DNA of 64,000 nt from Sporomusa sp. KB1 (GTDB lineage: Bacteria > Bacillota > Negativicutes > Sporomusales > Sporomusaceae): positions 62,001 through 126,000 of the forward strand of contig NZ_VLKC01000001.1 in assembly GCF_007830295.1 (NCBI RefSeq), in the 5' to 3' direction. Under the pieces are notes generated by a model. The model saw nothing but the letters and a program-made list of their open reading frames with translations. It had not been told where the DNA came from and searched no databases. Shown here piece by piece: positions 24,683 to 62,901 of this stretch. Every line of letters starts with the position of its first letter. Positions within the stretch are counted from its first letter, which is position 1. A program made the position numbers and the translations under genes.

Positions 24683-24853
24683 AACGAAAAAGCCATGAAA
24701 ATATCGCTTCACACGAAACCTTCATGGTTATTATCTTCATTACAAGAGCTATTTTCAAGTCATTCAATAAACCGACCGTACTTCATACGGTATTCGGCAG
24801 CTTCAGCTACCTTCTTTGCATTAATTGTACCAAAGTTCACTTTTAAATGTCAA
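24683..24853 (-). promoter_or_regulatory. Leader L1 (DUF3842-cooT): promoter, NYGAA hairpins, terminator
   Basis: Promoter TTGACA (24848-24853), 18-base spacer, TACAAT (24824-24829). Hairpins on the minus strand: GGTAGC/GCTGCC with a TGAA loop (24796-24811), ACCGTA/TACGGT with a TGAAG loop (24775-24791), and AACC/GGTT with ATGAA (24717-24729). The last shares its 5' arm and loop with the terminator CCATGAA...TTTCATGG-CTTTTT (24683-24727), so the two cannot coexist. Confidence 0.7.
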
Positions 24854-24901
24854 TACATAGTATAAATTATCTACAATATATTCTTTACTCAGAAATACTC
24901 A

Positions 24902-25019
24902 TTGACAAGTTTGCTACAATTACGAGATAATATATTTATAAAATTACACATATTTTGAAATTAAAGGTATGAAGCCTTGTTGGAGACGCAGTCCCCTTCA
25001 CTTTTTCATACCTTTTTTT
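24902..25019 (+). promoter_or_regulatory. Leader L2 (FmdE-ABC operon): promoter, NYGAA hairpin, terminator
   Basis: Promoter TTGACA (24902-24907), 18-base spacer, GATAAT (24926-24931). Hairpin AAGGT[ATGAA]GCCTT at 24964-24978 overlaps the terminator, in which GGTATGAA pairs with TTCATACC followed by seven T (24966-25019). A first hairpin is weak or absent here. The start codon of the FmdE gene is 35 bases after the T-run. The element is divergent from L1. Confidence 0.7.
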
Positions 25020-25054
25020 AATTTGTAAAATAAAAAATTATTGGAGGTATTATC

Positions 25055-25663
25055 ATGAACAATCGTTCTGCTGACTATCAAAAGGCTATTGACTTTCATG
25101 GACACTGCTGTCCTGGGCTGACTATTGGCTACCTTGCTGCCAAAGCTGCCTTGGCCCACCTCAAAGTAGAACGCGCCGCCGATGAAGAGCTTGTCACTAT
25201 TGTCGAGTCGGACGGCTGCGGCATTGATGCTGTGCAAGTGCTATTAGGATGCACCATTGGTAAAGGCAACCTGATCTACAAAGACCATGGCAAACAAGCT
25301 TATACCATTGGCAACCGCAGCACAGGCCAAGCCGTGCGAATTGTTATGACTGGTGACATGGTGCCGCTGACAACAGAACAGGAAACCATCAAGGCGGCCG
25401 TATTCAGCGGACAGGCCACGCCTCAGCAGGAAGAAGCCTGGCATAAACTTCAGTCTGAACGCACTGCCCGTCTGCTAGCTGCTCCGTTTGAAGAAATATT
25501 CAAAATTCAGGATGTTGAACTTAAACTTCCCTCAGAAGCCAAAATCTTTAACTCGGTCATCTGTGAGTACTGCGGCGAAAAAGTCATGGAAGCCCGTGCC
25601 CGTTTGAAAAATGGCAAAATTGCCTGCCTGGCCTGTACCGAAGAATATAGCCGGGGATGGTAA
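25055..25663 (+). CDS. FmdE-family protein with C-terminal zinc ribbon
   Basis: 202 residues. The N-terminal FmdE domain has DFHGHCCPGLTIGYLAAKAAL and ESDGCGIDAVQVLLGCTIGKGNLIY, including the conserved His-Cys and Cys residues that bind metal. The C-terminus carries a zinc-ribbon-like CEYCGEKVMEAR...CLACTEEY. FmdE-like proteins occur with molybdenum/tungsten enzymes and, in many Firmicutes and delta-proteobacteria, beside metal ABC transporters; their biochemistry is not settled. The ATG follows TTGGAGGT. It is first in an operon with a complete peptide/nickel-type ABC transporter and overlaps the binding-protein gene by seven bases. A metal-chaperone or sensor role is inferred. Confidence 0.87.
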   Translation: MNNRSADYQKAIDFHGHCCPGLTIGYLAAKAALAHLKVERAADEELVTIVESDGCGIDAVQVLLGCTIGKGNLIYKDHGKQAYTIGNRSTGQAVRIVMTGDMVPLTTEQETIKAAVFSGQATPQQEEAWHKLQSERTARLLAAPFEEIFKIQDVELKLPSEAKIFNSVICEYCGEKVMEARARLKNGKIACLACTEEYSRGW

Positions 25664-27264
25664 ACCTGACCAGAAATAAACATATATTGGTGGCGACCCT
25701 GCTGGCTGTGTGCCTTACCCTGCTGGTGCTCGGCTGCGGTGGATCAGCAGGGCCGGACTCCCTAGTAGCCCAAGATCAAGTCTATACCATTGCTGATGCC
25801 ACCGGTGATTACGGCTTTCCCTCACCTTTTGCTCATTATTCCCGCGGCCCCGGTTATATCCGCATGAGTATGATTTTTGATACCTTACTATGGAAAGACG
25901 CTGACGGCTATGTTCCGGCATTGGCAGCTAAGTGGGACTATCTCGCAAGCGAAAACGCTTACCTTTTCCATCTGAACAATACAGCTACTTGGCATGATGG
26001 TAAAAAAGTGACTGTAGATGATGTCTTATTTACGTTTGATTATCTGAAAAAATTCCCCTATCAAACAACCAATATTAGTATGATTAAAACCGTTGAAGCC
26101 ATCGACAGCTCTACTGTGAAAATTACATTATCCCACCCGCACGCGCCATTTTTAGATCAAGTTGCCGGCACCATCCCGATTCTGCCCAGGCATATCTGGC
26201 AAAATATTACCAATCCTGCTCAATTCCGGCAACCAGAGGCACTCATTGGTTCCGGCCCGTTTAAACTTGTTGACTATAACAAAGAACAGGGTTCGTACTT
26301 ATATGAAGCTTATGAAGGCTATTATCAGGGTAACCCCAAATTCAAGCAGCTCAAATTCATAAAAATGAATGTCGAAATGGCAACAGCTGCTTTGAAGCAG
26401 CACCAAATTGACATCACCCAGATTCCGCCGGAGTTAGTCAAGCCTCTGGAACAGACAGGTCTTAAAATTTTGACCATGCCACACGACTGGATTGCCAAAC
26501 TAGTTATTAACCACCAACAAGAACCGTTTAATAGCACCGAATTCCGGCAGGCGTTAGCGTACGCTATTGACCGTAAGGCACTAATTGACACCACACTGCG
26601 AGGTCAGGCACTTCCTGGTAACCCTGGTCTCATCCCGCCTGACAGCCAGTGGTATAACCCGGCATTAGCCGAAATGTACCTTTATAGTCCGGACAGTGCT
26701 GGTAAACTTCTGGCCAAACTAGGCTATAACAAGTCAGGCAGTTATTGGGAAAAGAACGGACAGCCGCTGGAGATCGAACTACTTGTTACCGCCAAAGCCG
26801 GTATCCCTGGCTCCCCTGGTGAGCGCCAGGGGGAATTTATCAAAGTGCAACTGGAGCAATTCGGTATCAAGGTCAACCTAAAAGCCCTGGAAGGTAAAAC
26901 ACTGGACAACCGCATTAATGAGGGAGAATTTGAATTGGCTTTAAATGGCCACGGCGGTTTGGGGGCTGACCCCGATTTCCTGACAAATATGATTGTTGGC
27001 AAAGGATTCAACAGCGCTCACTACCATCAGAACCAAACCCTTACTACCTTACTCGCCAAACAAGCTTCTCTTATGGATAACGCCGCCCGCAAACAACTTT
27101 TTGCCGAAATCCAGACTGTCTTTGCTGCCGATGTACCGGCCTTGGCCTTGTACTATCCTACCTGGTACTATGCCTACAGCAACCGGGCCAACCTGTACTT
27201 TACTAAGCAAGGCATTGGCTCCGGAGCTCCTATCCCCCTTAATAAAATGTCATTTGTCAAATAG
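25657..27264 (+). CDS. Peptide/nickel ABC transporter substrate-binding lipoprotein (SBP family 5)
   Basis: 535 residues with a lipobox ending LVLGC (Cys27). SBP_bac_5 features: AATWDYL...NTATWHDGKKVTVDDVLFTFDYL, ALIGSGPFKLVDY, FRQALAYAIDRKALIDTTLRGQA and PALALYYPTWYYAYS. It is a close paralogue of the protein at 32723-34333 (shared TIADxTGDxGFPSPFAHY). The family binds peptides, nickel-chelates or haem-like ligands; with FmdE and nickel genes around it, a metal chelate is likely but unproven. Start overlaps the FmdE stop; followed by two permeases and a fused ATPase. Confidence 0.88.
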   Translation: MVNLTRNKHILVATLLAVCLTLLVLGCGGSAGPDSLVAQDQVYTIADATGDYGFPSPFAHYSRGPGYIRMSMIFDTLLWKDADGYVPALAAKWDYLASENAYLFHLNNTATWHDGKKVTVDDVLFTFDYLKKFPYQTTNISMIKTVEAIDSSTVKITLSHPHAPFLDQVAGTIPILPRHIWQNITNPAQFRQPEALIGSGPFKLVDYNKEQGSYLYEAYEGYYQGNPKFKQLKFIKMNVEMATAALKQHQIDITQIPPELVKPLEQTGLKILTMPHDWIAKLVINHQQEPFNSTEFRQALAYAIDRKALIDTTLRGQALPGNPGLIPPDSQWYNPALAEMYLYSPDSAGKLLAKLGYNKSGSYWEKNGQPLEIELLVTAKAGIPGSPGERQGEFIKVQLEQFGIKVNLKALEGKTLDNRINEGEFELALNGHGGLGADPDFLTNMIVGKGFNSAHYHQNQTLTTLLAKQASLMDNAARKQLFAEIQTVFAADVPALALYYPTWYYAYSNRANLYFTKQGIGSGAPIPLNKMSFVK

Positions 27265-27272
27265 AGGTTACT

Positions 27273-28280
27273 ATGCCTACCACCAAAACAGCCGTTGACT
27301 ACGCAATTGCGTTAACAGCTATTCTCATTCTTAACTTCATATTGCCACGACTGCTGCCAGGCGACCCGCTACAAGCCATTTATGGCGATGAAGCCTTAAT
27401 GGTCATGACACCGGCAATGCAAGCCGAGCTTATTCATCGTTTTGCCCTTGACCAGACCTGGTCAGAACAATTTGTTGCCTACATACAGGCACTCTTACGC
27501 GCTGACCTAGGGTATTCATACTTTTACCACACTTCTGTCGTCAGTGTAATTGCCGGGGTACTGCCCTGGACACTACTGTTGACTGGTTTAGCTTTTGTAC
27601 TTTCCACACTGCTTGGCAGTTTGCTAGGAATAGAATCTGGCTACCAGCGGGGTAGTAGACAAGATGGTCATTTGCTGGGAATCATGATGCTTATCAGCGG
27701 TTTTCCCGACTTTTTTGCTGGGATATTGTTGTTGCTTACTTTTGGTGTTATCTTGGCCTGGATGCCTTTGTCCGGCGCGTTTACTCCCTATAGCGGATTC
27801 ACAGGTTTAAAGCTGGTTGCTGATATTGCGCAGCATCTAACGCTGCCATTGACAGCACTAGTGCTTGTCCGCCTGACTGCCGCCTACTTATTTTCCCGTA
27901 GTGCCATGGTTGGCGTTATGGGAGAACACTTTATCCGGACAGCACGTGCTAAAGGCTGTCCGGACATAGCCATTCGCTATCGCCACGCGGCGCGTTCAGC
28001 GCTGCTGGCAATAGTTACCGCCGCCGGCCTCAGCTTCACTCATGTGATAAGCGGTGTTTTATTTATTGAGACCGTCTTTTCCTACCCCGGACTTGGCTCT
28101 TTACTCTACAAAGCCGTTCTTACCCGTGACTACCCGCTGCTACAAGGAATTTTACTGCTGGCCGCTGTGCTGGTGCTTCTTGTTAACTTTGTCACCGACC
28201 TGCTCTGCGCCAGATTTGACCCTCGCTTATCAGCACCATCGCCAAAAGCAAGGAGAGACAATCATGCATATCCGGTATGA
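27273..28280 (+). CDS. ABC transporter permease, DppB/NikB type
   Basis: 335 residues, about six membrane helices, with the binding-protein-dependent-transport inner-membrane motif FIRTARAKGCPDIAIRYRHAARSALLAIV (EAA loop) and the DppB-type N-terminus (FILPRLLPGDPLQAIYGDEA, LGYSYFYHTSVV). It pairs with the next gene to form the channel. The ATG follows AGAGGTTACT, eight bases after the binding-protein stop. The 3' end overlaps the next permease by 17 bases. Confidence 0.9.
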   Translation: MPTTKTAVDYAIALTAILILNFILPRLLPGDPLQAIYGDEALMVMTPAMQAELIHRFALDQTWSEQFVAYIQALLRADLGYSYFYHTSVVSVIAGVLPWTLLLTGLAFVLSTLLGSLLGIESGYQRGSRQDGHLLGIMMLISGFPDFFAGILLLLTFGVILAWMPLSGAFTPYSGFTGLKLVADIAQHLTLPLTALVLVRLTAAYLFSRSAMVGVMGEHFIRTARAKGCPDIAIRYRHAARSALLAIVTAAGLSFTHVISGVLFIETVFSYPGLGSLLYKAVLTRDYPLLQGILLLAAVLVLLVNFVTDLLCARFDPRLSAPSPKARRDNHAYPV

Positions 28281-29106
28281 TATTGAGCTGACAGACAGTA
28301 ACTTTGGCCGTTTAGGTTTGTCGCTGCTTTTTACGGCATTCATCGCCGCCCTGCTGGCGCCAGTTCTTGCTAACTATAGTCCTACCGCTTATACAGGCGA
28401 TATTTTTCACCCGCCCTGTACCAGATACTGGCTGGGAACCAATGAGGTTGGACAGGATATCTGGACTCAACTCATTTATGGTGCCCGTACCTCACTTAGT
28501 ATTGCCGGGGGTACGGCATTTATGGCGGTAGCCTTAAGCCTGCTGGCTGGCGGCCTGGCCGCTCTCTACGGCGGCCTTTGTGATCGAACCATTATGCGCA
28601 TTGTTGATATATGGCTGGTTATTCCACCTATTATTGTCATTATTTTGTTTGCCGCTTATTTACACCCAAGCATAGTTTTACTAATAACGCTATTAGCTGC
28701 CTTTATGTGGCCTGACGGAACCCGGATTGTGCGGGCTCAAACACTGGCCCTAAAGGCCAAAGCCAGTTATGCTGCCGCCACTACTTTTGGCGCTACTAAG
28801 CAATACCGGCTCAGAAAACACGTCCTCCCCGATCTTGGGCCTACGCTCATAGCACTGTTTATTCACTATGCCCGCCGCGCCATTTTTATGGAAGCCGGGT
28901 TGTCTTTCCTGGGTATCAGCGACCCCAGTCTTATCAGTTGGGGAAAAATGCTGCAGCAGGCCCTGGCATTCACCTACCTAGACGTGTGGCAATGGTGGCT
29001 GATACCGCCCGGTTTGGCAGTATCACTCACCATTGTCGGGCTGGCCTTTACCGGTCTGGCACTTGAAACCGCCCTTGATCCCCGGCTGCGTCCAGAAAAG
29101 AGGTAA
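28264..29106 (+). CDS. ABC transporter permease, DppC/NikC type
   Basis: 280 residues from the ATG after AAGGAGAGACAATC; an upstream in-frame ATG at 28054 lies inside the preceding gene and is rejected. DppC-type features: ANYSPTAYTGDIFHPPCTRYWLGTNEVGQDIWTQLIYGARTSL near the N-terminus, EAA loop AKASYAAATTFGATKQYRLRKHVLPDLG and GLSFLGISDPSLISWGKML. It forms the heterodimeric channel with the preceding permease. Confidence 0.9.
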   Translation: MHIRYDIELTDSNFGRLGLSLLFTAFIAALLAPVLANYSPTAYTGDIFHPPCTRYWLGTNEVGQDIWTQLIYGARTSLSIAGGTAFMAVALSLLAGGLAALYGGLCDRTIMRIVDIWLVIPPIIVIILFAAYLHPSIVLLITLLAAFMWPDGTRIVRAQTLALKAKASYAAATTFGATKQYRLRKHVLPDLGPTLIALFIHYARRAIFMEAGLSFLGISDPSLISWGKMLQQALAFTYLDVWQWWLIPPGLAVSLTIVGLAFTGLALETALDPRLRPEKR

Positions 29107-29108
29107 TC

Positions 29109-30785
29109 ATGGAACAAGAAAAGACCATACTTGACATTCAAAGTCTCTATGTCAGTTATGAAGGAACCGACATACTCAAAGATATTAATCTAACTCTGAA
29201 AACCAACCAAACGCTGGCTGTCATTGGTGAATCCGGCGCAGGCAAAAGTTCACTCGCACTTGCCATTGCCGGACTTTGTGCCGGTAGCACCACAGGCACA
29301 GTACTGTTTCAAAATAAGAACTTGCTCGCAGCCACCGAGGCTGAGCTGCGTCACATTAGAGGCAAAGACATTTCCCTGGTTTTCCAAAATACCGACAATG
29401 CCTTACACCCTTTATACACGGCAGCCGAACAAATAACAGAAGCCATTATCCTGCACAAGGATATCGCAAAACCTTCCGCCTATCAGTTAGCCTTACAAGC
29501 CTTGGCCGAAATCGGACTGACCGGCAAGCTGGCCACTGCGTATCCACATGAATTAAGCGGTGGGCAGCAGCAGCGAACGCTCATTGCTATGGCTCTTGTC
29601 AACAACCCTGAGCTATTGCTGCTGGATGAACCTACTGCGTCCCTTGACCCGCTTACCAAACAAGAGATTACCACTCTCCTACAGCAATCAGCCGCCGGAC
29701 GCGCAGTTATCCTTATTACCCATGACATTACCACCGCCGCTGAACTGGCTGATACTGTTGCCGTGCTGTATGGCGGCCGGATTATTGAACTAGGCCCGGC
29801 CAGAGCAATATTGGAAACTCCCCGCCACCCGTATACACGCGGTCTTCTCCGAGCCTACCCCAACATGACGACAGTCAAAGACTTCCAGGGCATTCCCGGC
29901 ACCATGCAACATAATCTTCCTGGCTGTCCTTTTCAGCCGCGCTGTACCCAACGGCTGACTAGCTGCAACGCCAGCATGCCAGAGCTTGCCTTGACTGACG
30001 GGCGCATGCTCGCCTGTCACCGTGGCGGCATTGTGCCTGTGCTTCAGGTAACAAACCTAACCAAAGCCTGGGATGAACACCAGGCTGTACAAGATCTAAC
30101 ACTTACTTTGTATGAAGGTGAAACATTGGCCATTGTCGGCGAAAGCGGTTCAGGAAAAACCACACTGGCGAAAACCATTATGGGCCTTACACCCCCGACC
30201 TCAGGTAATATCTACCTTAACGGAGTCAACATCACGGAACGCAGCCGAGATTTTTATAAACAAATCCAACTGGTCTTCCAGAATCCCAAAGAGGCGCTCA
30301 GTCACCGCCTGACTGTCTGCCAGCTAATCAAAGAACCGCTTGACATTCAAAAAATTGGTACTGAAACAGACAGACTAGTTGCTGTCAAAAAATTGCTTAC
30401 CGAAGTTGAACTGCCAACAAATGATGCCTTGCTCCATAAATACCCGCACCAGCTAAGCGGCGGAGAAGCTCAACGGGTAGTCATTGCCCGCGCCTTAGCC
30501 TTAAACCCGAAAATACTTATTGCTGATGAACCAACCTCAGCACTGGACGCCAGCATCCAAGCCAAAGTAATCAAGTTATTGCTCAATCTTCAGGAAGATC
30601 GCGGCCTGTCCATGTTATTTATTACCCACGACATTGCTTTGGCCAGAAAAATCAGTGACCGCCTGGCTGTTATGAAAAATGGCAAAATCGTGGAAGAGGG
30701 ACTAACCCATCTATTAATTGCCGCCCCGACGCACCAATATACCCAAAAACTGCTGGCTGTGGCAGCCCGCATCAGCTGGCGGTAA
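29109..30785 (+). CDS. Fused dual ATPase of a peptide/nickel ABC transporter
   Basis: 558 residues with two complete ATPase domains. First: VIGESGAGKSS (Walker A), LSGGQQQR, LLLLDEPTASLD, plus the Cys-rich oligopeptide-transporter tail CPFQPRCTQRLTSC (about residues 275-290). Second (from about residue 310): IVGESGSGKTT, LSGGEAQR, ILIADEPTSALD. This combines NikD- and NikE-type subunits in one chain, as in GsiA-type systems; the Cys-rich tail is kept only after the first domain. It starts two bases after the permease stop. A weak hairpin at 30812-30844 follows. Confidence 0.9.
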   Translation: MEQEKTILDIQSLYVSYEGTDILKDINLTLKTNQTLAVIGESGAGKSSLALAIAGLCAGSTTGTVLFQNKNLLAATEAELRHIRGKDISLVFQNTDNALHPLYTAAEQITEAIILHKDIAKPSAYQLALQALAEIGLTGKLATAYPHELSGGQQQRTLIAMALVNNPELLLLDEPTASLDPLTKQEITTLLQQSAAGRAVILITHDITTAAELADTVAVLYGGRIIELGPARAILETPRHPYTRGLLRAYPNMTTVKDFQGIPGTMQHNLPGCPFQPRCTQRLTSCNASMPELALTDGRMLACHRGGIVPVLQVTNLTKAWDEHQAVQDLTLTLYEGETLAIVGESGSGKTTLAKTIMGLTPPTSGNIYLNGVNITERSRDFYKQIQLVFQNPKEALSHRLTVCQLIKEPLDIQKIGTETDRLVAVKKLLTEVELPTNDALLHKYPHQLSGGEAQRVVIARALALNPKILIADEPTSALDASIQAKVIKLLLNLQEDRGLSMLFITHDIALARKISDRLAVMKNGKIVEEGLTHLLIAAPTHQYTQKLLAVAARISWR

Positions 30786-38534: not shown

Positions 38535-38644
38535 CAAAAAAGCCATCGTAACCTTCTGCTGGGCATTACATGCCACGGAAGGATAGCAATGACCTTCAAG
38601 TCAAAATATTACACTTCGCTATGGTAAATCTCTTCAAGAGATTT
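38535..38644 (-). promoter_or_regulatory. Leader L4 (ThrRS-like/radical SAM): NYGAA hairpins and terminator
   Basis: Minus strand: perfect hairpin AAATCTC[TTGAA]GAGATTT (38626-38644), then TGAC[TTGAAG]GTCA (38590-38603), then a terminator with GCTATC/GATGGC and CTTC/GAAG pairs and TTTTTT (38535-38587). Here the second hairpin abuts the terminator rather than overlapping it. No clear promoter lies between this and the small ORF upstream, so transcription may come from L3. The gene start is 211 bases downstream. Confidence 0.65.
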
Positions 38645-38926: not shown

Positions 38927-39047
38927 AAAAAAGGTATGAGCGAATAAAGGACCTATTCACGTCCTTTACCGGCTTCATACCTTGAGTTACGTTATATCTG
39001 TATTTACATTTCCATATGACTAAATTTGTAATGAGTTTTCACAACTC
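38927..39047 (-). promoter_or_regulatory. Leader L3 (small exported protein): NYGAA hairpins and terminator
   Basis: Minus strand: GAGTT[GTGAA]AACTC (39033-39047), then AAGGT[ATGAA]GCC (38971-38983), overlapping a terminator with GGTATGA/TCATACC plus an inner AAAGGAC/GTCCTTT stem and TTTTTT (38927-38983). The conserved 11-mer GGTATGAAGCC is shared with L2, L7 and L10. Confidence 0.7.
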
Positions 39048-45611: not shown

Positions 45612-45634
45612 TTGAACTCTCCTTCTTATGGGTT

Positions 45635-49099: not shown

Positions 49100-49114
49100 A
49101 CCCATTCTCCTCGC

Positions 49115-50269
49115 CTAATTTTGCAAATCCATCATCCAGACACCGCTTAGTTCAACCGGTAAAAACTTCTTGTGGAATTCCTGGAAGCTTTGCAGCGGGT
49201 CTACATCCTTAAACTCTTCGGGATAAAACTTTTTCGCTAGATATTGAATAACCACTGAATCATAGACCTCACGGGAAATAGCATGATGGATGGAAAACAC
49301 TTGCTTATTCTTCACTGCGCTGAGTTCTGCCCAGCCTGTCCGTTTGGTAAAAGACTGAAGTAATTTCTGCGATTCTGCTTGGTCGGCCATGAAGCCCATA
49401 CGCATGGATTCCGTTTTTTTCGGCCAATATGAACCTGTGATAATGATAATATCAGGATTAGCCTTAAGTAAAAACTCAGGATTTATTGGAGCATATTTTT
49501 CAATTTTATCCTTGGTTATATTATTACCGCCGCATTTTTCCACTAAAGCCCCCCACATATAGTTTCCATAACTATTACCATATGTAGCCGGACCTTCTGA
49601 ACCGCACTCCACATAGACTTTAGGCTTAGGCTTATTAATGGCTTGCAACCGTGAGTAGATCTTATTGACCTGCTCCTGGTGATAGGCGGCCAGTTCTTGT
49701 GCCCGCTGCTCTTGTCCAAAAATTTTCCCCAGCAATTGAATGCTTTTCGTATGATTTTCGATACTTTCCAGGTGATAATCAACAAATACAGTAGGTATTC
49801 CCGCTGCTTCCAGTTTTTTTATAATATCCTGGGCTTGTTTCTGCATACTTAGCGGTAAAATAAGTACATCCGGCTTTAAGGCAATAACCTTTTCAACATT
49901 AAAGCTATCCTGATCGAGATTCCCTATATCAGGAATTTTTTCCAATTCCGGCATGGCTTCAGAATACTTTTCCCACATATCGAAGCGGTTGATCTTTAAT
50001 CCATTATCCCAGCCAGCAATCTTTTGCTGTACATTTTTCCCCTCTAGCGCCAGCATGGTAATAAAGCCGCCACCGCTGCCGCTCCACTGCAGCACTACCT
50101 TATTGACCGGCGCTTTGATTTTTACCTCCCGCCCGGCAAGGTCGGTAACCTGTATTTGTTCATCTTTTTTCACTGCTGTTTGCTGTGAGCAGCCTATTAG
50201 TGCGGTAATAGCAACCAAAAATACTAAAACTACTAAGCATAGTTGTTTTAATGACGATTTCCAATTCAT
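49115..50269 (-). CDS. FecB/TroA-like metal-chelate substrate-binding lipoprotein
   Basis: 384 residues, ATG after GGGGGATAGTTAC, lipobox ALIGC (Cys27). Periplasmic-binding-protein fold type III: VTDLAGREVKIKAPVNKVVLQWS, VEKVIALKPDVLILPLS, NPEFLLKANPDIIIITGSYWP, WAELSAVKNKQVFSIHHAIS. Longer than the usual FecB. A MRMGFM segment and two His near 310 could coordinate metal, but the ligand is unknown. First gene of the FecBCD-type unit, behind leader L6. Confidence 0.88.
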   Translation of the reverse strand: MNWKSSLKQLCLVVLVFLVAITALIGCSQQTAVKKDEQIQVTDLAGREVKIKAPVNKVVLQWSGSGGGFITMLALEGKNVQQKIAGWDNGLKINRFDMWEKYSEAMPELEKIPDIGNLDQDSFNVEKVIALKPDVLILPLSMQKQAQDIIKKLEAAGIPTVFVDYHLESIENHTKSIQLLGKIFGQEQRAQELAAYHQEQVNKIYSRLQAINKPKPKVYVECGSEGPATYGNSYGNYMWGALVEKCGGNNITKDKIEKYAPINPEFLLKANPDIIIITGSYWPKKTESMRMGFMADQAESQKLLQSFTKRTGWAELSAVKNKQVFSIHHAISREVYDSVVIQYLAKKFYPEEFKDVDPLQSFQEFHKKFLPVELSGVWMMDLQN

Positions 50270-50311: not shown

Positions 50312-50463
50312 AAAAAACCACAAAGGATAGGACTTCTAATCGTCCAAATACCCTTCGTGGATATGTCTTACTTATTCAGCTTTAGATCTGTCCTACTAGC
50401 TAGCTCGCTGACCTTCAAGTCAGCATTTGCTGAAATTATAGCTTATTATAAACAACAATGCAA
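50312..50463 (-). promoter_or_regulatory. Leader L6 (FecBCD-type ABC): promoter, NYGAA hairpins, terminator
   Basis: Promoter TTGCAT (50458-50463), 17-base spacer, TATAAT (50435-50440). Hairpins on the minus strand: GCTGAC[TTGAAG]GTCAGC (50407-50424) and ATATCC[ACGAA]GGGTAT (50348-50364). The second is exclusive with the terminator CCACGAAGG...CCTTTGTGG-TTTTTT (50312-50360). Large blocks (GAGCTAGCTAGTAG; AATAAGTAAGACATATCC) are identical to L9. Confidence 0.75.
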
Positions 50464-50676: not shown

Positions 50677-50749
50677 AAAAAAGTATGAAGCCATTCTTCT
50701 ACACTGAATGGCTTCATACCACATTTTCGTCTAATGTGCTGTTATTATA
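50677..50749 (-). promoter_or_regulatory. Leader L7 (orphan): NYGAA hairpins and terminator
   Basis: Minus strand: -10-like TATAAT (50744-50749); CACATT/AATGTG with loop AGACGAA (50720-50738); TGGT[ATGAA]GCCA (50709-50721) overlapping a terminator formed by GTATGAAGCCATTC/GAATGGCTTCATAC and TTTTTT (50677-50719). No intact gene lies between it and leader L6. Confidence 0.6.
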
Positions 50750-53265: not shown

Positions 53266-54009
53266 CTATTTTTCGACAACCAGCATAAACATTGGCGTCG
53301 AGCGGTATAGTATCTTTTTCTTATCGTCATAAACCCGGTCGCCGATATCAGTTTCGCAATAGATCTTTTTATAACCAAGTTCTATAAGTGTGCCAATATC
53401 CCATTGTGGTCTGATCCGCTGGCACATCGGCATACTTTTTCTGTAATCAATCATTTCCGCAGTAAACTGCGGCGGCTCTTCTCCAAATAACCTCACGTAT
53501 TCTTGTTCGTCCGCCTGGTATTTTTTCATATATTCTTCATTAAATAATCCTATGTTCCAATTCGCATCAAAGATTACGATCTTACCGTCCGGCTTCAAAA
53601 CCCGTTGCCATTCGCTATATGCTTGCCTGGCATCAATTAAAGTCCATGCTACGTTCCGGCTAATAATAAGGTCAAAGCTCTCGTTGTCAAATTCCAGCTT
53701 TTGTCCGTCAGAGACTCTAAAGTCGGCAGTTATACCGGCATTTTTGGCATTGGCCTTTGCTTCCGCAAGCATTGCCTCGGTGCAATCAATGGCCGTCACA
53801 TCATGTCCTGCCTGGGACATGATGATTGCGAAAAAACCTGGTCCGGTGCCTACGTCAAGAATCTTCATCTTTGTGCTTTTCCCAGCGTTTTCAAGGATAA
53901 TATCCGTCCATGCCTGTTTTTTAAAGCAGTTTAACTCTTCTTGGATTATATTGCTATAGTTATTGGAACTGTCTGTCCAGTTTTTAAGCAATTTTTCTTC
54001 TTGATTCAC
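53266..54009 (-). CDS. Class I SAM-dependent methyltransferase, Nik-operon type
   Basis: 247 residues, GTG start after AGAGGTGG. SAM-binding motif I ILDVGTGPGFFAIIMSQAGHDVTAID, motif IV-like DLIISRNVAWTLID and post-motif LKPDGKIVIFDANWNIGL. It is a paralogue of the protein at 61752 (shared DVGTGPGFFAI, SRNV-W-L, LKP-GK--VFDANW, TPMF at the C-terminus). It sits between the binding protein and the porin in the second Nik-type operon. A small-molecule methyltransferase acting on a metal ligand, or a metal-stress-linked enzyme, is inferred from position; the substrate is unknown. Confidence 0.88.
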   Translation of the reverse strand: MNQEEKLLKNWTDSSNNYSNIIQEELNCFKKQAWTDIILENAGKSTKMKILDVGTGPGFFAIIMSQAGHDVTAIDCTEAMLAEAKANAKNAGITADFRVSDGQKLEFDNESFDLIISRNVAWTLIDARQAYSEWQRVLKPDGKIVIFDANWNIGLFNEEYMKKYQADEQEYVRLFGEEPPQFTAEMIDYRKSMPMCQRIRPQWDIGTLIELGYKKIYCETDIGDRVYDDKKKILYRSTPMFMLVVEK

Positions 54010-54087
54010 TTATATCCACCTCTGCATCGTTTTTTAAAATATAGATACGCAGCCAATACGATAACGCATCTGTATTTTATGTGATTA

Positions 54088-55707
54088 TTATTTTACGTCA
54101 AGCTTCTGCCATTCGATTGGTGCATAGTTATTAACGCCAATTTCAAATCCTTTTATTTTATTTGTATTAACAGCGAAGGAAGTAATTGGATAGTAGATAG
54201 GAATAGTCAGCGCTTCTTCACTGATAAATTTGAATACCGTATCGTAATTTTTTTGCCTTTCTGTTTTGTCAAGAGTACATAAGGTTTTTACAATATTGTT
54301 ATATAGCTCTTCGTCATACCATACTTTTGCCGCTTTGCTTGTAGCAAGAATGGAGAACATCTCAAGCGATGAACCGTGCGGTACCCAAGAGTCTGAAGAG
54401 GTTCTCATCAGCGCTATATCAAACGCCTTGGTATTCATGGTTGCATCTTCATAGCCGTTTTTATCCAAAATCTTAAGATTTACTTTTATGCCAACAGCTG
54501 AAAATTCAGCTTGCACAAACTCCGCCATTTGCTTCCATTCAGGAAATTCTCCTGTTGATAATACAAAGTTAAACTCCAGCTTTTTCCCGCTTTTCTCGCG
54601 AATGCCATCACCATCTGTATCAGTATACCCGGCAGCTTCCAGCAATTGTTTGGCCTTTTCTTTGTCATTGGCAAATCCATAATTGTTTTCATTGGTAGTA
54701 TAAGGAATGCCGGGTTGATACAAACCATTAGCGCCTGCCCCAATGTTGTCAAACAGGTTTGCTGCAATGCTGGGCTTGTTAATAGCATAGTTCATGGCCA
54801 AACGGACATTTTTATCTTGAAAGGCTTCTACCTTTTGATTGAAAGCAATAAAATGCGAACACATGGATCCTTTGGTGTATATGTCAAATTTGCCTGTCTT
54901 TTTCAGCTCTATAAGACTCTCCATCGGGATTTTGCCGATAAGATCGCCGCCGAGAATATCAATCTCGCCGCTTTGCAGCGCTAACGATCTCGCTTGCGCA
55001 TCAGTTATTACCTTAAAGGTTATCTTATCCACTTTAGGTTTTTCTCCCCAGTAATAGGGGTTGGGCACAAGGGTAAATTCCTGATCTTTGGTATAGGATT
55101 CGACCATCCAGGGACCTGTGCCAACAGGTTTGACAAATTTGCCTTTATCATTGCCTTCCATTTTGGCGATGGAGGCAGGGCTTAAAAAGCGTACAGGCCG
55201 TGGGTATGTTAACTCAGTCAAAATCGGATAGGCACCGCTCTTAAATACAATTTTAACGGTATAATCATCCAGTGCTTCCATGCTCTCCACATTGGCCGCG
55301 CTTAGGATGGCATGACGGTCATTGTTCACCCATCTTTTCAGGTTGAAGATAATTGCCGCCGCATTAAAGTCAGTGCCATCAGAAAATTTCACTCCTTGCC
55401 GCAGCTTAAAGGTATAGGTTTTTCCGTCCGGAGAAATGTCCCAACTGGTAGCAAGCTGCGGCAGAATTTTTCCCTCGCCGCCATCTTCGACAAAGCCCTC
55501 ATAAAGCATTTTATATAAAAAGTGCGGCCCATTATAGCTGGCAGCATCCAATTCACTCAAGGCACCGTCACGATAGATGGCCACGACGATTTCTTTGGCA
55601 CCTTTTGACTTATTTGCTTCTGGGGAACTGCTTTTGCCGCAGCCGGTAAGGATCAGGCAGGTACATAGCAACAATGCAATAATGGTTGTGAAATAGTTTT
55701 TTTTCAT
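54088..55707 (-). CDS. Nickel/peptide ABC transporter substrate-binding lipoprotein, NikA-like
   Basis: 539 residues, ATG after AGGAGAGAAGAA, lipobox ILTGC (Cys23). NikA-like features: LYEGFVEDGGEGKILPQLATSWDISPDGKTYTFKLRQGVKFSDGTDFNA, TYPRPVRFLSPASI, GTGPWMVESYTKDQEFTLVPNPYYWGEKPKVDKITF and GEIDILGG. It is closer to NikA than to the 25.7/32.7-kb pair. Fifth gene of the order permease-permease-ATPase-ATPase-binding protein, unlike the NikA-first order at 45 kb. Likely ligand: nickel or another metal chelate. Confidence 0.88.
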   Translation of the reverse strand: MKKNYFTTIIALLLCTCLILTGCGKSSSPEANKSKGAKEIVVAIYRDGALSELDAASYNGPHFLYKMLYEGFVEDGGEGKILPQLATSWDISPDGKTYTFKLRQGVKFSDGTDFNAAAIIFNLKRWVNNDRHAILSAANVESMEALDDYTVKIVFKSGAYPILTELTYPRPVRFLSPASIAKMEGNDKGKFVKPVGTGPWMVESYTKDQEFTLVPNPYYWGEKPKVDKITFKVITDAQARSLALQSGEIDILGGDLIGKIPMESLIELKKTGKFDIYTKGSMCSHFIAFNQKVEAFQDKNVRLAMNYAINKPSIAANLFDNIGAGANGLYQPGIPYTTNENNYGFANDKEKAKQLLEAAGYTDTDGDGIREKSGKKLEFNFVLSTGEFPEWKQMAEFVQAEFSAVGIKVNLKILDKNGYEDATMNTKAFDIALMRTSSDSWVPHGSSLEMFSILATSKAAKVWYDEELYNNIVKTLCTLDKTERQKNYDTVFKFISEEALTIPIYYPITSFAVNTNKIKGFEIGVNNYAPIEWQKLDVK

Positions 55708-55728
55708 TTCTTCTCTCCTAACAAAAAA

Positions 55729-56691
55729 TTAGTGATTATAGTAAAAATGACAGGCTATATAATGTTCGCCAGTCTTTGGCACTAAGGATGGCTGCTCAGC
55801 TTTGCAAACTTCTTGCGTATAAAGACAACGATTCTGGAAAACACATCCTCTCTCAGGTATTTTTAATTCTTCTTCATCTTTATACAGCACCATTTTTTTC
55901 TCCCTTTTTTGGGGATCAGGAATAAGGGTTGCCGCCAGCAACGCCTTTGTGTAGGGGTGCTGTACATCGCCATTGATATTGGAAATGATTTCCACGATAT
56001 TGCCAAGATACATGACAACAACCCTGTCACATATCTTGTTGACTGCGGCTATGTCATGGGAAATAAACAAATAGGTAAGAGCAAACTGCTGTTTCAGATC
56101 GGTTAGCAAGGTTAAAATCTGATTTTTCATAGCATAGTCGATGCTGGAAACGGCCTCGTCGCATACGACAAATTCCGGATTCAGGATCAACGCTCTGGCG
56201 ATACCTACCCTTTGCCTTTGACCTCCGGACATTTCGTGGCCGTATCTGGTCAGATAGGTTTGGTCAAGCCCGACTTTCTCCAACATGGCAATGATTTTTT
56301 CTCTTTTTTTCTCAGTTGATTCCTGGCTGTAATTATTGAGGGGTTCACTGATGATTTGTTCGACCGTAAAATACGGATTAAAGGCATTGGCGCTGCCTTG
56401 AAAAATCATTTGCATGCTGTTTCTGATCTTGCGCATTTGATTAAAGGAATAGTCTGTTATATCCTGCTGATTAAATATGATTCTTCCCCTACTGGGCTGC
56501 TCCAGCTTTAACAGCATTTTCCCTAAAGTGCTTTTACCGCAGCCCGACTCGCCGACCAGCCCCAGGATTTCACCTTTTTTAATGGTTAAATTCGTATTAT
56601 ATACAGCGTATACCCGGGGCTTTGCTTTGTTGTTATAGCATTTATAAAGGTTTGTTATTTCAAATAAATTCACACTTTCACCCATTTTCAC
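55729..56691 (-). CDS. Nickel/peptide ABC transporter ATPase, NikE/DppF type
   Basis: About 320 residues. Walker A GLVGESGCGKST, signature MSGGQRQR, Walker B FVVCDEAVSSID (Ala for Pro, as in the 40.6-kb NikE), His switch FISHDIA. The C-terminal Cys-rich oligopeptide-transporter segment CVFQNRCLYTQEVC is present. The start could be GTG at 56691, ATG at 56685 or GTG at 56673; the last begins directly at the conserved NLFEITNLYK. Confidence 0.87.
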   Translation of the reverse strand: MKMGESVNLFEITNLYKCYNNKAKPRVYAVYNTNLTIKKGEILGLVGESGCGKSTLGKMLLKLEQPSRGRIIFNQQDITDYSFNQMRKIRNSMQMIFQGSANAFNPYFTVEQIISEPLNNYSQESTEKKREKIIAMLEKVGLDQTYLTRYGHEMSGGQRQRVGIARALILNPEFVVCDEAVSSIDYAMKNQILTLLTDLKQQFALTYLFISHDIAAVNKICDRVVVMYLGNIVEIISNINGDVQHPYTKALLAATLIPDPQKREKKMVLYKDEEELKIPERGCVFQNRCLYTQEVCKAEQPSLVPKTGEHYIACHFYYNH

Positions 56692-56693
56692 AA

Positions 56694-57482
56694 TTAAAAA
56701 ATTGCAGCAAGCAGAGCTTTTGTATACTCATGCTTTGGCGATTCGAACACGTCGTATACGGTGCCGCTGTCTACTATCTTGCCGTCCTTCAACACATAAA
56801 CATCATCTGCCATTTGGGCAACAACCCCTAAATCATGGGTTATTAACACGATAGCCATACCTCTATTTTTTAAGTGCAGCAGTTCTTCAAGTATGGCAGC
56901 TTGTGTTGTTAAATCCAGTGATGAGGTTGGCTCATCAGCGATTAAGACCTGGGATTGAGCCAGCAGTCCCATCGCTACCATCACTCTTTGGCACATACCG
57001 CCGCTTAGCTCAAAAGAGTAGCTTTCCAGGATTTGATCGGCATTTTTCAAACCAACGCGGGCAAGTACATCCTTGAACAGGCTTACGGCATCTTTATTGC
57101 TTATCGCTTGTTTGCTGTGGGTACGAATTACTTCGAAAAAATGACTTTTCACCTTAAAAACAGGATTCATGGAACTGGTCGGCTCCTGAAAGATCATTGA
57201 TATTTCCTTGCCTCTAATTTTCATAAGCTGTTTTTCCTGCAAATCCCTGAGGTTAACCCCGTTAAGCCATATTTCTCCGTCAATAATTTTTCCCGGATCA
57301 TCAATCAAATTAAGGATGGATAATGACATAACCGACTTGCCGCTGCCGGAGCCGCCGACAATGGCGGTTATTCTGCCTTTGTACACATCAAGACTGACCC
57401 CATCTACGGCTTTTATTACCTGTCCTTCCAAGTAGAAATAGGTTTTAAGGTTCTTTATGGATAAAACCGGCTGCTCAGCCAT
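56694..57482 (-). CDS. Nickel/peptide ABC transporter ATPase, NikD/DppD type
   Basis: 262 residues from the ATG after AAGGAGGGTGACGAGCAAC; the longer frame from 57542 runs inside the permease gene. Walker A AIVGGSGSGKSV, signature LSGGMCQR, Walker B VLIADEPTSSLD, His switch LITHDLG. It overlaps the permease stop by eight bases and ends two bases before the next ATPase. Confidence 0.88.
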   Translation of the reverse strand: MAEQPVLSIKNLKTYFYLEGQVIKAVDGVSLDVYKGRITAIVGGSGSGKSVMSLSILNLIDDPGKIIDGEIWLNGVNLRDLQEKQLMKIRGKEISMIFQEPTSSMNPVFKVKSHFFEVIRTHSKQAISNKDAVSLFKDVLARVGLKNADQILESYSFELSGGMCQRVMVAMGLLAQSQVLIADEPTSSLDLTTQAAILEELLHLKNRGMAIVLITHDLGVVAQMADDVYVLKDGKIVDSGTVYDVFESPKHEYTKALLAAIF

Positions 57483-58356
57483 GTTGCTCGTCACCCTCCT
57501 TGACTGCCGCTCTATAGCCTGAAGTAGGGCTAAGAACATCATTCAGTCCTTCACCAAATACATTGAAGGCAAACACAACAAGCATAATAGCCAGTCCAGG
57601 CCAAAGCAGCATTAATGGCTGTGAGGTTAAATACTGTCTGCTGTCACTCAACATAACACCCCAATCGGCAATGGGCGGCTGTGAGCCAAGCCCAATAAAG
57701 GAAAATCCGGCAACGTGCATAATAACCGCAGCAATTCTAAGCGTTGCCAGTACAATGACCGGAGAAATAACATTCAGGGTGATGTGCCTTAAAATTACGG
57801 ATGTCCGACTGCTGCCTGCAGCAATAGCCGCCATTACAAACTCTTTTTCCTTAAGCTTTATAACCATACTTCGTACAATTCTGGCAAAAGGCGCCCACCA
57901 AAGTACAATAAAAACAATCATGATATTAACAATACTCGGTCCCAGCACACCTACAACCGCTAAAGCAAGCAAGCTTGACGGAAAGGTTGACGCAATATCG
58001 GCCAGACGCATGATGGCATTATCAAGCCATCCGCCCAGATAGCCTGCCATAATGCCGAGAGGAACACCAATCATCAGCATCAGGACTGTAGCCAAAATTG
58101 CGGTAGAGAGGCTTGTCCTAATGCCATAGATCAGTCGTGACAATACACAGCGGCCGAGATGATCGGTTCCCAGCGGGAATTCGGTGCATGGCTTGAGCAA
58201 TTTCTGGTTAAGATCAACCGAATAGGGATCATGGGGAGACAGAACAGGGGCAAAAATACCTGCCAAAACAAAAACGCTTATAATGATGAATCCCAGCATG
58301 GCCAATTTTTGTTTTTTTAATTTAACCAGTAGGCTATTTTTCAAGAGTATGACCAT
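57475..58356 (-). CDS. Nickel/peptide ABC transporter permease, NikC type
   Basis: 293 residues, six helices. N-terminal SPHDPYSVDLNQKLLKPCTEFPLGTDHLGRCVLSRLIYGIRTSL, EAA loop FVMAAIAAGSSRTSVILRHITLNVI, and FSFIGLGSQPPIADWGVMLSDSRQ. AAGGA directly abuts the ATG, so a slightly downstream start (TTG at codon 5) is possible. Forms the channel with the upstream NikB-type protein. Confidence 0.87.
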   Translation of the reverse strand: MVILLKNSLLVKLKKQKLAMLGFIIISVFVLAGIFAPVLSPHDPYSVDLNQKLLKPCTEFPLGTDHLGRCVLSRLIYGIRTSLSTAILATVLMLMIGVPLGIMAGYLGGWLDNAIMRLADIASTFPSSLLALAVVGVLGPSIVNIMIVFIVLWWAPFARIVRSMVIKLKEKEFVMAAIAAGSSRTSVILRHITLNVISPVIVLATLRIAAVIMHVAGFSFIGLGSQPPIADWGVMLSDSRQYLTSQPLMLLWPGLAIMLVVFAFNVFGEGLNDVLSPTSGYRAAVKEGDEQHG

Positions 58357-58378
58357 TCCTTTCTAACCATAAAGCTGG

Positions 58379-59314
58379 TTATTCCATTCTTATTCTAGGG
58401 TCGATATAGAGGTATAAAATATCAAGTAAAAGATTTATGATTATATAAGTTACAGCAACAATGATTATATAGCCCTGTATAACAGGTAAATCTTTCAGAT
58501 TAATACTGTCAACGGCAAATTTCCCTATTCCGTTCCAGGAAAAAATGGTTTCACAAGCAAATTGACCTGCTAAAAGTTTGCCAAAGTCTACGCCGATAAG
58601 GGTTATACAGGGAAGCACTGCATTTTTCAGGCCATGCTTCAGCAAAGCGGCATTTTTGCTAAGACCTCTTGCTCTTGCCGCTCGCACATAGTCGTAACTA
58701 TTTATTTCAATGAGATTATTTCTTAAAATTCTTATATAAATAGCTGCGAAATGTACGCTGAGGGTTACGGCAGGCAACAGTATATTTTGCAGTTTGCTGC
58801 CGGAAATAACCGGAACAAGTTTCAACTGAACGGCAAATATATATAACAGCATTAGACCAAGCCAGAAATCCGGCATGGTTGCACCGGCAGTAGACACAAT
58901 TCTGAAAAAGTGGTCAAGCAGCGAATCCTTGTATCGCGCTGAAATAAGGGCTATCGGTATAGCCAGCAAAATGGAAATAAACATTGCTGCCACAGCCAGC
59001 ATAAAGGTTGCGGGGTATCTTGACAATATTTCGTCGGCAACAGGCTTGTTTGTTTGAAAAGATATTCCAAAATCAAAATGAACTGCTTTCATCAGCCAAT
59101 TTACATACTGGGTAAGCAGCGGTGCATTTAGCCCCAACTCTTCCCGCACAGCGTCAATATTTTTTTTAGTAACTTCCAAGCCCTGACTGCGCAAGGTTAT
59201 CTCTGCCACATCACCAGATGACATATTGCTTAACGCAAAGGCTAAAATAGTTACAATAATTAGCAGAGGAATTATTTGCAACAGCCTTTTAAAAATAAAT
59301 GTGAACTTTTTCAT
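58379..59314 (-). CDS. Nickel/peptide ABC transporter permease, NikB type
   Basis: 311 residues, ATG after AAAAGGT. First gene of the second Nik-type operon. N-terminus FALSNMSSGDVAEITLRSQGLEVTKKNIDAVREELGLNAPLLTQYVNWL is of the nickel-type NikB form; EAA loop YDYVRAARARGLSKNAALLKHGLKNAV and a C-terminal ETIFSWNGIGKFAVDSINLKDLPVIQGYIII. Behind leader L8. Confidence 0.88.
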   Translation of the reverse strand: MKKFTFIFKRLLQIIPLLIIVTILAFALSNMSSGDVAEITLRSQGLEVTKKNIDAVREELGLNAPLLTQYVNWLMKAVHFDFGISFQTNKPVADEILSRYPATFMLAVAAMFISILLAIPIALISARYKDSLLDHFFRIVSTAGATMPDFWLGLMLLYIFAVQLKLVPVISGSKLQNILLPAVTLSVHFAAIYIRILRNNLIEINSYDYVRAARARGLSKNAALLKHGLKNAVLPCITLIGVDFGKLLAGQFACETIFSWNGIGKFAVDSINLKDLPVIQGYIIIVAVTYIIINLLLDILYLYIDPRIRME

Positions 59315-59383: not shown

Positions 59384-59516
59384 AAAAAAAGAAGGTCCAA
59401 ACAAGATGCATATAATATATGCATCTTGTTTGGACCTTCATGGCCTGTCGTTTCATAACAATATGATTATTTTATGACATCTACTGAGTAAACGAGACAT
59501 TATTTCATATAATGTC
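59384..59516 (-). promoter_or_regulatory. Leader L8 (second Nik-type operon): NYGAA hairpins and terminator
   Basis: Minus strand: an 8-bp perfect hairpin, GACATTAT with ATAATGTC around ATGAA (59496-59516), and GGCC[ATGAA]GGTC (59433-59445). The 3' half of the second forms the 5' arm of a very strong terminator (AAGGTCCAAACAAGATGCAT and its complement, then TTTTTTT; 59384-59438). The promoter is not clear. The gene start is 70 bases downstream. Confidence 0.75.
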
Positions 59517-61751: not shown

Positions 61752-62498
61752 TTATTTTGAGGCACAAATGGCAAACATAGGCGTAGGCTTATATAACAAT
61801 TGCTCTATTTCATCATGAACCATGGAACTGATATTGTCTTGAACCTCAACCTGTCGAAAACCGCAATTACGAAAAGCTTGCTCATCCCACAACGGTCGTT
61901 TTTCATAGGTCAATGGCAACTTACGGGCAATAGCCTCATTTTCTTTTCGCTGCATAGGTGAAATATTTTGTTTGTAACCTTTTTCTATTGCCATTTGCAG
62001 ATACTTGTCACATTCGCCCTGAAGAGCCGGGTCACTCAGACCTAAATGCCAATTTGCATCAAAAACCAGTGCTTTTCCTGTTGGTTTTAACAGCCTGTGC
62101 CATTCTTGATAGACTTCCATGGGGTTTGGCAGTAACCAAGTTACGTTTCTAGACACAATTAAATCCAAACTTTCCTTGGGCAAGTCAACATCATGGGCAT
62201 CAGCCTTCAAAAATCGTATGTTCTTTCCGGCTGACACAGCATTTTGCCGCGCTTCTTTCAACATTTCTTCACATTTGTCAATGGCTGTAACCGAATAGTT
62301 CATTCCAGCCAGCAAAATGGCGAAAAATCCCGGCCCGGTCCCCACATCTAACACCGTAAGATTTTCTTGCTCACCCGCGTACTTACGCAGTAACGACTCC
62401 CATGCCTGTTTTTTCTGGCAGACCATTTCCCGTTTTATAAGATCACTATAGCTATCAGCACGTCCATTCCAGTAAGTTTCAATACGTTGTTCCAGCAT
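61752..62498 (-). CDS. Class I SAM-dependent methyltransferase, Nik-operon type
   Basis: 248 residues, ATG after AAAGGAGATAATCGGT. Motif I VLDVGTGPGFFAILLAGMNYSVTAID, DLIVSRNVTWLLPNP, LKPTGKALVFDANWHLGL and C-terminal YKPTPMFAICASK. Paralogous to the 53.3-kb methyltransferase of the second Nik-type operon. It is directly behind leader L9 and divergent from a Nik-type permease gene under leader L10. The recurrence of this enzyme type with Nik transporters suggests it acts on the ligand or is part of the same response. Confidence 0.88.
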   Translation of the reverse strand: MLEQRIETYWNGRADSYSDLIKREMVCQKKQAWESLLRKYAGEQENLTVLDVGTGPGFFAILLAGMNYSVTAIDKCEEMLKEARQNAVSAGKNIRFLKADAHDVDLPKESLDLIVSRNVTWLLPNPMEVYQEWHRLLKPTGKALVFDANWHLGLSDPALQGECDKYLQMAIEKGYKQNISPMQRKENEAIARKLPLTYEKRPLWDEQAFRNCGFRQVEVQDNISSMVHDEIEQLLYKPTPMFAICASK

Positions 62499-62592
62499 AC
62501 CGATTATCTCCTTTATAAAACAAATTTTAACTATACCTTCGCTATATTACTCAACAACTTAGTACTGGTGATATATATCTCCCCCTGAAAAA

Positions 62593-62744
62593 CAAAAACC
62601 ACAAAGGATCGGACTGTAACGTCCAAATACCCTTCGTGGATATGTCTTACTTATTGAGATTTAGATACTAAATCTACTAGCTAGCTCACCGACCTTCAAG
62701 TCAGTATGTGCTAAAATTATAGCTTATTATGATCAACAGTACAA
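62593..62744 (-). promoter_or_regulatory. Leader L9 (methyltransferase unit): promoter, NYGAA hairpins, terminator
   Basis: Promoter TTGTAC (62739-62744), 17-base spacer, TATAAT (62716-62721). Hairpins on the minus strand: ACTGAC[TTGAAG]GTCGGT (62688-62705) and ATATCC[ACGAA]GGGTAT (62627-62643), the latter exclusive with terminator CCACGAAGG...CCTTTGTGG-TTTTT (62593-62639). Compared with L6 the first stem has compensatory changes (A-U for G-C; U-G for U-A) and the variable middle hairpin differs entirely. Confidence 0.75.
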
Positions 62745-62787
62745 TACATTATTGTGAAATATTTTACTATTTTATTGAGTATATATG

Positions 62788-62901
62788 TTGACATAGTTTT
62801 ACAAAAACGTGTATGATTAATACAAATATAAGAATCATGAAGATTCTAAAATCGAGGTATGAAGCCTAGGGGTATTTCCCTTATGCTTTCATACCTTTTT
62901 T
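62788..62901 (+). promoter_or_regulatory. Leader L10 (Nik-type permease): promoter, NYGAA hairpins, terminator
   Basis: Promoter TTGACA (62788-62793), 18-base spacer, TATGAT (62812-62817). Hairpins AGAATC[ATGAA]GATTCT (62831-62847) and AGGT[ATGAA]GCCT (62855-62867); the second shares its 5' half with the terminator GGTATGAAGC...GCTTTCATACC-TTTTTT (62856-62901). The start codon is only 15 bases after the T-run. It is the clearest tandem example. Confidence 0.8.

Follow-up and report, generated by a model that had tools for sequence, protein, structure and literature searches.

What kind of control acts on the ten intergenic leaders (L1 to L10) that lie between positions 24683 and 62901 of a 64,000-nucleotide stretch of the Sporomusa sp. 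KB1 genome (the window, part of contig C2 of the 6.06-Mb, two-contig genome G000)? A first-pass annotation, made from the letters alone, had read them as a family of leader RNAs with paired NYGAA-loop hairpins that exclude terminators and control a metal-uptake regulon, and the ten were assigned here by matching loops, leader by leader, to the list given there. The leaders belong to a real RNA family that is widespread and of the dual-hairpin antiterminator kind; its loop is new and its regulon concerns metals. We put the probability at roughly 70% that they form one RNA family in which a GAA-loop hairpin, often preceded by another of this type, competes with a terminator, likely acting as metal-responsive antitermination switches for which the protein FmdE is the first-choice factor.

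In all ten leaders, one more than had been claimed, the last hairpin and an intrinsic terminator have bases of the terminator's 5' arm in common, which makes the two structures mutually exclusive (Table 1). Seven leaders (L1, L4, L5, L6, L8, L9, and L10) pass a strict rule that combines a terminator and an NYGAA hairpin (loop of 5 or 6 nt, at least 4 pairs) overlapping its 5' arm with a second NYGAA hairpin of at least 5 pairs no more than 130 nt upstream. The earlier description of nearly all leaders as paired holds for these seven, but L2 and its detected orthologues have a single hairpin, L7 combines one standard (overlapping) hairpin with a hairpin that has a 7-nt loop, and the overlapping hairpin of L3 has 3 pairs only. 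The minimum-energy fold contains the terminator in all ten leaders and the first hairpin in six (L4, L5, L6, L8, L9, and L10); as for the remainder, the L1 input was cut inside the first hairpin, L2 has none, L3 folds otherwise, and L7 shows the hairpin with the 7-nt loop. Blocking the terminator 3' arm, computed for L3 and L9, costs 21.8 and 18.9 kcal/mol, respectively. With the terminator in the lowest-energy folds and this blocking cost, the default state is therefore predicted to be OFF, and the last hairpin must be held by something. Good promoters, which had been ascribed to most leaders, are apparent before L10 (11/12 match), L8 (10/12), and the DUF3842 homologues (TTGACA..TACAAT), but promoter-like matches in the scanned part (46900-62950) barely exceed chance (49 versus 37.8, standard deviation 5.9).

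None of 2000 dinucleotide shuffles (200 for each of the ten leader segments) passes the strict rule. At the 134 predicted terminators of the window, the NYGAA loop gave 7 dual matches, whereas 23 control loops, permuted or complementary, together gave 1. The corresponding totals were 8 versus 6 (at most 1 per control loop) in a 464-kb sample of the same genome, which without the window and locus L005 holds 0 dual matches at 741 terminators, and 18 versus 2 in 342 kb around leaders of other genera. An 820-kb set, counted per terminator, gave 37 dual matches versus 0-2 per control loop (9 in total) and 80 named fmdE loci gave 11 versus 6 for all control loops together, these two sets having some Sporomusa loci in common, a few leaders being counted twice, and 2 of the 37 and 3 of the 11 resting on a GUGAA "hairpin" that is a promoter spacer. 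The stretches outside the own genome were picked around matches to a pattern that fixes the last hairpin and not the first, a bias that favors the last hairpin only. When hairpins were collected without regard to their loop, GAA was present in 57 of 106 strong hairpins upstream of an overlapping hairpin versus 156 of 2172 upstream of other terminators, with UGAA (19) and AUGAA (18) leading, followed by AGAA, AAGAA, AGGAA, and ACGAA. The loop signature is therefore (N)NGAA, i.e., NGAA (4 nt) or NNGAA (5 nt), most often closed by a C-G pair (14 of 28 first-hairpin pentaloops, 56 of 113 overlapping hairpins). The loops listed by the first-pass annotation are present in the ten leaders, but the signature is not strictly NYGAA, and the "UUGAAG" hairpins of L6 and L9 actually fold as U-UGAA-G.

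Compensatory stem changes, proposed earlier as a test of the family, occur in the first and middle hairpins of 12 homologous leaders of DUF3842 genes, some orthologous and some paralogous, which come from eight genomes of a single family (two each from four of them) and were aligned without structural guidance. The first hairpin is paired in 100% of cells, with two-sided changes (GC to AU) in 2 of 5 pairs, and the middle hairpin, which has GAA in most loops, adds two more pairs changed on both sides. For the whole structure of 14 pairs, 97.6% of cells are paired versus 24-42% in slid controls, the covariation score is 0.297 versus 0.215 when shuffled, and 0 of 500 shuffles reach either the paired percentage or the score.

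Since copies of the leader sequences are also present on the other contig, the family is not limited to the window region. A narrow search pattern (GCCAYGAAGGN{5,35}TTYRTGGYTTTT) was run on 398 genomes sampled evenly across the phylum, 27 of which contain it, with 38 matches in all (reversed pattern 0). Searches with two genus-type forms were positive in 4 of 12 genomes of the family and in 5 of 28 of the order (controls 0). The expectation that such matches would precede nickel/cobalt (Ni/Co) or metal-chelate genes was borne out at 24 of the 30 pattern loci read out, with cbiM (8), cobN (5), SBP5 (2), fmdE (2), and DUF3842 (2) as recurrent targets, the cbiM and cobN labels coming for some members from Pfam and for the rest from clustering or resemblance, and two pairs among the cobN loci being tandem leaders of two close genomes. 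Single targets are fecCD, fecB (about 0.5 kb on), DUF364 "heavy-metal chelation", cooT, and a lipoprotein gene that was counted as metal because its unit holds a CbiM-like protein (read from sequence). The dual form also stands before fmdE in named carriers, including Caloramator fervidus. For Sporomusa silvacetica and S. malonica, the leader of fmdE is of the single form and that of the divergent neighbor, DUF3842, of the dual form. The NYGAA rule likewise gives the single form for Peptococcaceae metagenome-assembled genomes and for Desulfoscipio geothermicus, whose leader becomes dual if AAGAA is allowed. Within the window, the unit after L1 had rightly been named for CooT, as a DUF3842 gene and then the CooT gene follow this leader. 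The shared leaders on metal units likewise agree with a metal-uptake regulon, but the unit after L3/L4 (a tRNA-synthetase-like protein, a radical SAM protein, DUF401, and SBP5) cannot clearly be assigned to metals.

As long as no factor is bound, the growing transcript would fold into the terminator and transcription would stop. The factor would be a metal-responsive RNA-binding protein that probably reads the GAA loops and not the stems, as the loop is constant and the stems are unrelated in sequence; once bound, it would keep the last hairpin closed and the arm out of the terminator, and polymerase would pass. Because the genes function in uptake, read-through would be expected when nickel or cobalt is scarce. 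The weakest part of this scheme is the factor itself, which may be zinc-finger FmdE as first choice and CooT as second. We propose only tentatively, at odds clearly below even, that zinc-finger FmdE senses Ni/Co, binds RNA by recognizing the paired GAA-loop hairpins, and as an antiterminator governs the uptake regulon for these metals (cbiM, cobN, nik, fec, TonB receptors, cooT) in Sporomusa, Peptococcaceae, and relatives, where it would replace or complement DNA-binding metal repressors. The available text of PMC2954224 describes two solved zinc-finger FmdE proteins as intertwined dimers, reports a core metal in one of them (Zn) and in a one-domain relative (Zn/Ni), and places metal transporters near FmdE. 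Between 26 pattern-bearing and 50 other genomes, FmdE was found in 25/26 versus 18/50, CooT in 24/26 versus 17/50, DUF3842 in 24/26 versus 24/50, and ANTAR in 21/26 versus 32/50 (p 0.19), all being raw counts over related genomes and the "other" genomes being negative for one narrow pattern only, with leaders or leader-like hairpins in G157, G121, and G075, which tells against the comparison. The FmdE and CooT misses include G301 (63% complete). Four genomes found through fmdE and kept out of the 26 (G028, G034, G036, and G038) have FmdE in 4/4, DUF3842 in 3/4, CooT in 2/4, and ANTAR in 0/4. The FmdE zinc finger is present in 24 of the 26 leader-bearing genomes, the exceptions being G301 and G312 (copy cut by a contig end). 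The co-occurrence of FmdE does not merely reflect its status as a target, because among the best copies in 19 leader-bearing zinc-finger genomes few have their own leader directly before them (2 clearly, 2 doubtfully), although some may be controlled through an operon.

Could CooT be the RNA-binding factor instead of FmdE, as a nickel-binding dimer whose RNA affinity is lost or gained with Ni? Its homologues are named "(putative/predicted) RNA-binding protein" in several databases, the available text of PMC6006190 gives one Ni per dimer (Kd 9 nM) and an R. rubrum cooT mutant that requires added nickel, and the protein follows the leaders in its co-occurrence, is encoded behind L1, and is present in G157, a genome without FmdE. 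However, it was not found in G043 (99% complete, with leaders) or in C. fervidus, and RNA binding gets no structural support because the predicted fold resembles CooT structures and, beyond them, no more than weakly matching barrels that are probably unrelated; we consider this reading unlikely. The context of CooT is treated in PMC13056359, whose main text makes no mention of DUF3842 or FmdE. A variant of the ANTAR system would have the order-conserved response-regulator/ANTAR protein bind both hairpins like EutV under relaxed loop rules. ANTAR target RNAs (EutV/NasR/AmiR) do share with the leaders the two small hairpins, the second exclusive with a terminator, and a conserved loop on a free stem, and ANTAR proteins are encoded in 26 of 28 order genomes, with one copy in this genome. 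As far as the available text of PMC3369931 and PMC8934654 goes, these targets have hexaloops with A1 and G4 and a constrained linker, to the point that 20 additional nt abolish EutV antitermination (PMC8934654), whereas the leaders, whose mismatch to such hexaloops the first pass had rightly remarked, have 4-5-nt GAA loops (UGAA, AUGAA, ACGAA, AAGAA, etc.) and linkers that vary freely in length. ANTAR targets lie before ethanolamine or nitrogen genes, the leaders before metal genes, also in genomes without ANTAR: the protein was not found in five of the 26 leader-bearing genomes (among them G156 and G267, 99-100% complete) or in C. fervidus, and it is not associated with the leaders in the counts given above. 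ANTAR was rejected as the general regulator because of the differing loops, the varying linkers, and these five genomes, and its relaxed variant we regard as very improbable.

Other known RNAs resemble the leaders in part. TwoAYGGAY RNA (Rfam) also has two hairpins, but with six-nt AYGGAY loops instead of 4-5-nt GAA loops, and it was not among the cmscan matches of the searched loci. The BglG/SacY/LicT antiterminator (RAT) RNAs, with one conserved imperfect hairpin on sugar genes under control of the phosphotransferase system, are like the leader model in that a protein-stabilized hairpin overlaps a terminator, the comparison with the leaders being made via the Rfam scans. NiCo and cobalamin riboswitches are leader RNAs on Ni/Co and corrinoid genes, with aptamers that have conserved cores; the gene theme is similar, but neither family matches in Rfam at the searched leaders. 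Identity with a known Rfam family, an earlier suggested check, was not found: at gathering score, Rfam 15 gave only a T-box (23579-23824) in the window and none at the leaders, and no family reached its threshold at a leader in 13 further loci (5 scanned at E<=5, 8 at E<=1), a sub-threshold His_leader match (29.2 bits versus threshold 49, E 0.49) overlapping the C. fervidus leader. The leader family was not met in a literature search. A riboswitch that binds the metal ion or a metal chelate directly would equally exert cis-acting terminator control over one metabolic theme, and the spacer sequence GGAAAUGUAA is common to L3, L005, and L022. Yet the stems are unrelated and the spacers vary freely, so that no aptamer core is common to the leaders, and some leaders have a single hairpin only; with the Rfam result this makes a riboswitch quite improbable. 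Extremely improbable is that the hairpins are by-products of terminator sequence or of mobile repeats and regulate nothing: terminator sequences (CCACGAAGG..., GGUAUGAAGCC...) recur within the genus and several leaders fall within one 50-kb region, but the first hairpin is outside the terminator and covaries, it recurs with other stems across genera before the same gene families, and the terminators elsewhere in the genome sample had no dual match.

Several results weigh against the reading of the leaders as one family of metal-responsive antitermination switches served by FmdE. A second standard hairpin is not present in L2 and L7, and the hairpin-to-hairpin distances in the window (7, 22, 40, 41, 43, 50, and 66 nt) are unexpected if a single rigid dimer binds. 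In the covariation test, the pair-type count is no higher than in shuffles (13 versus 13.5), the overlapping hairpin of the 12 DUF3842 leaders varies on one side only, and covariation of their terminator is nothing beyond chance. For six of the 30 pattern loci, a link to metals is not clear: L256, L262, L266, and L277 are unassigned, L272 has a [FeFe]-hydrogenase, and L282 has an unspecified ABC ATPase. Co-occurrence is raised because FmdE, CooT, and DUF3842 are themselves targets. No FmdE was found in G157 (100% complete, one contig) despite a good dual leader (GCAAUC-AGGAA-GAUUGC; GACC-AUGAA-GGUC) before DUF3842-cooT, and with CooT missing from G043 and C. fervidus, none of ANTAR, DUF3842, CooT, and FmdE is universal in leader-bearing genomes.

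Table 1. Hairpins, terminators, and downstream genes of the ten leaders (window coordinates)
Feature	Position	Strand	Remark
L1 first hairpin GGUAGC-UGAA-GCUGCC	24796..24811	-	covaries in 12 homologous leaders
L1 middle hairpin ACCGUA-UGAAG-UACGGU	24775..24791	-	
L1 last hairpin AACC-AUGAA-GGUU	24717..24729	-	overlaps terminator 5' arm
L1 terminator stem	24693..24727	-	
DUF3842 protein (PF12953)	24122..24547	-	directly after L1
CooT family protein (PF10133, E 6.7e-26)	23914..24117	-	second gene after L1; candidate regulator
L2 single hairpin AAGGU-AUGAA-GCCUU	24964..24978	+	
L2 terminator	24963..25015	+	5' arm common with hairpin
FmdE with C-terminal zinc finger	25055..25663	+	downstream of L2; candidate regulator
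Nik/Opp-type ABC transporter (SBP5, two permeases, fused ATPase)	25657..30785	+	
L3 first hairpin GAGUU-GUGAA-AACUC	39033..39048	-	homologues exist
L3 last hairpin GGU-AUGAA-GCC	38971..38981	-	3 pairs
L3 terminator	38931..38983	-	
L4 first hairpin AAAUCUC-UUGAA-GAGAUUU	38626..38644	-	
L4 last hairpin UGAC-UUGAAG-GUCA	38590..38603	-	
L4 terminator	38536..38594	-	
L5 first hairpin UGCAGCA-AUGAA-UGCUGUA	47125..47143	-	
L5 last hairpin UGGU-UUGAA-ACCA	47072..47084	-	
L5 terminator	47032..47077	-	
Porin-like gene and NikABCDE-type unit	40556..46957	-	after L5; nickel_nikA 599 bits
L7 upstream hairpin CAUU-AGACGAA-AAUG	50722..50736	-	7-nt loop
L7 last hairpin GUGGU-AUGAA-GCCAU	50708..50722	-	
L7 terminator	50677..50719	-	
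L6 first hairpin GCUGACU-UGAA-GGUCAGC	50407..50425	-	
L6 last hairpin AUAUCC-ACGAA-GGGUAU	50348..50364	-	
L6 terminator	50312..50360	-	
FecBCD-type chelate transporter	47286..50269	-	after L7/L6
L8 first hairpin GACAUUAU-AUGAA-AUAAUGUC	59496..59516	-	
L8 last hairpin GGCC-AUGAA-GGUC	59433..59445	-	
L8 terminator	59384..59439	-	
Nik-type ABC and SAM methyltransferase	53266..59314	-	after L8
L9 first hairpin ACUGACU-UGAA-GGUCGGU	62688..62705	-	
L9 last hairpin AUAUCC-ACGAA-GGGUAU	62627..62643	-	
L9 terminator	62593..62639	-	
SAM methyltransferase	61752..62498	-	downstream of L9
L10 first hairpin AGAAUC-AUGAA-GAUUCU	62831..62847	+	conserved in G003, G005, G008
L10 last hairpin AGGU-AUGAA-GCCU	62855..62867	+	
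L10 terminator	62855..62901	+	
Nik/Opp-type permease	62917..63891	+	downstream of L10

Further features were seen near the leaders. Behind L4 (35909-38323, minus strand), a class II tRNA-synthetase core domain protein adjoins a radical SAM/SPASM protein and is not encoded by an obvious metal gene. Between L3 and L4 (about 38700-38840, minus strand) lies an apparent decayed remnant of a small exported protein, a homologue of which follows the same leader in G008 (L068); by eye, it resembles an FmdE-like domain. The spacer element of L3 (38990-39048), L022, and L005 (6030-6150) may form a UUAC/GUAA helix between the hairpins. Identity to S. ovata proteins is 94% for CooT and 91% for DUF3842. Among the other genomes, the DUF3842, CooT, and FmdE genes are adjacent in several genera (L384 in G121, L390 in G350, and L391 in G141), and this adjacency suggests that they form one functional module. 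The leader motif of L272 (G141) stands before a [FeFe]-hydrogenase-domain protein, a target that would fit nickel scarcity, as if the hydrogenase type were switched. An apparent permease gene in L141 is preceded by a tandem pair of nearly identical repeats (12886-13100, plus strand), each of which holds GAA-loop hairpins and two predicted terminators. In G008, a leader with GGUAUGAAGCC precedes an HD-domain-like signaling protein (L070, by eye), and a cobalamin riboswitch (113 bits; L072 538-718, minus strand) lies near a GAA-loop leader. The T-box leader of the window (125 bits, minus strand) is upstream of an AMP-binding enzyme gene (21847-23556). In contig C2, every match seen in 86,966-136,002 recurs at an offset of +701,564, and therefore the contig end seems to repeat its start (an unjoined circle or an assembly overlap), and the window falls within this repeated portion.

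At the core of acetogenesis are CO dehydrogenase, hydrogenase, and corrinoid enzymes, for which nickel and cobalt are needed. If the proposed scheme is true, control of the Ni/Co uptake genes would be accounted for by a regulon that works through terminators and extends across many genera, and DUF3842, CooT, and FmdE, which travel with the leaders, would gain a first testable function. Tandem-hairpin antitermination would then not be restricted to ANTAR proteins.

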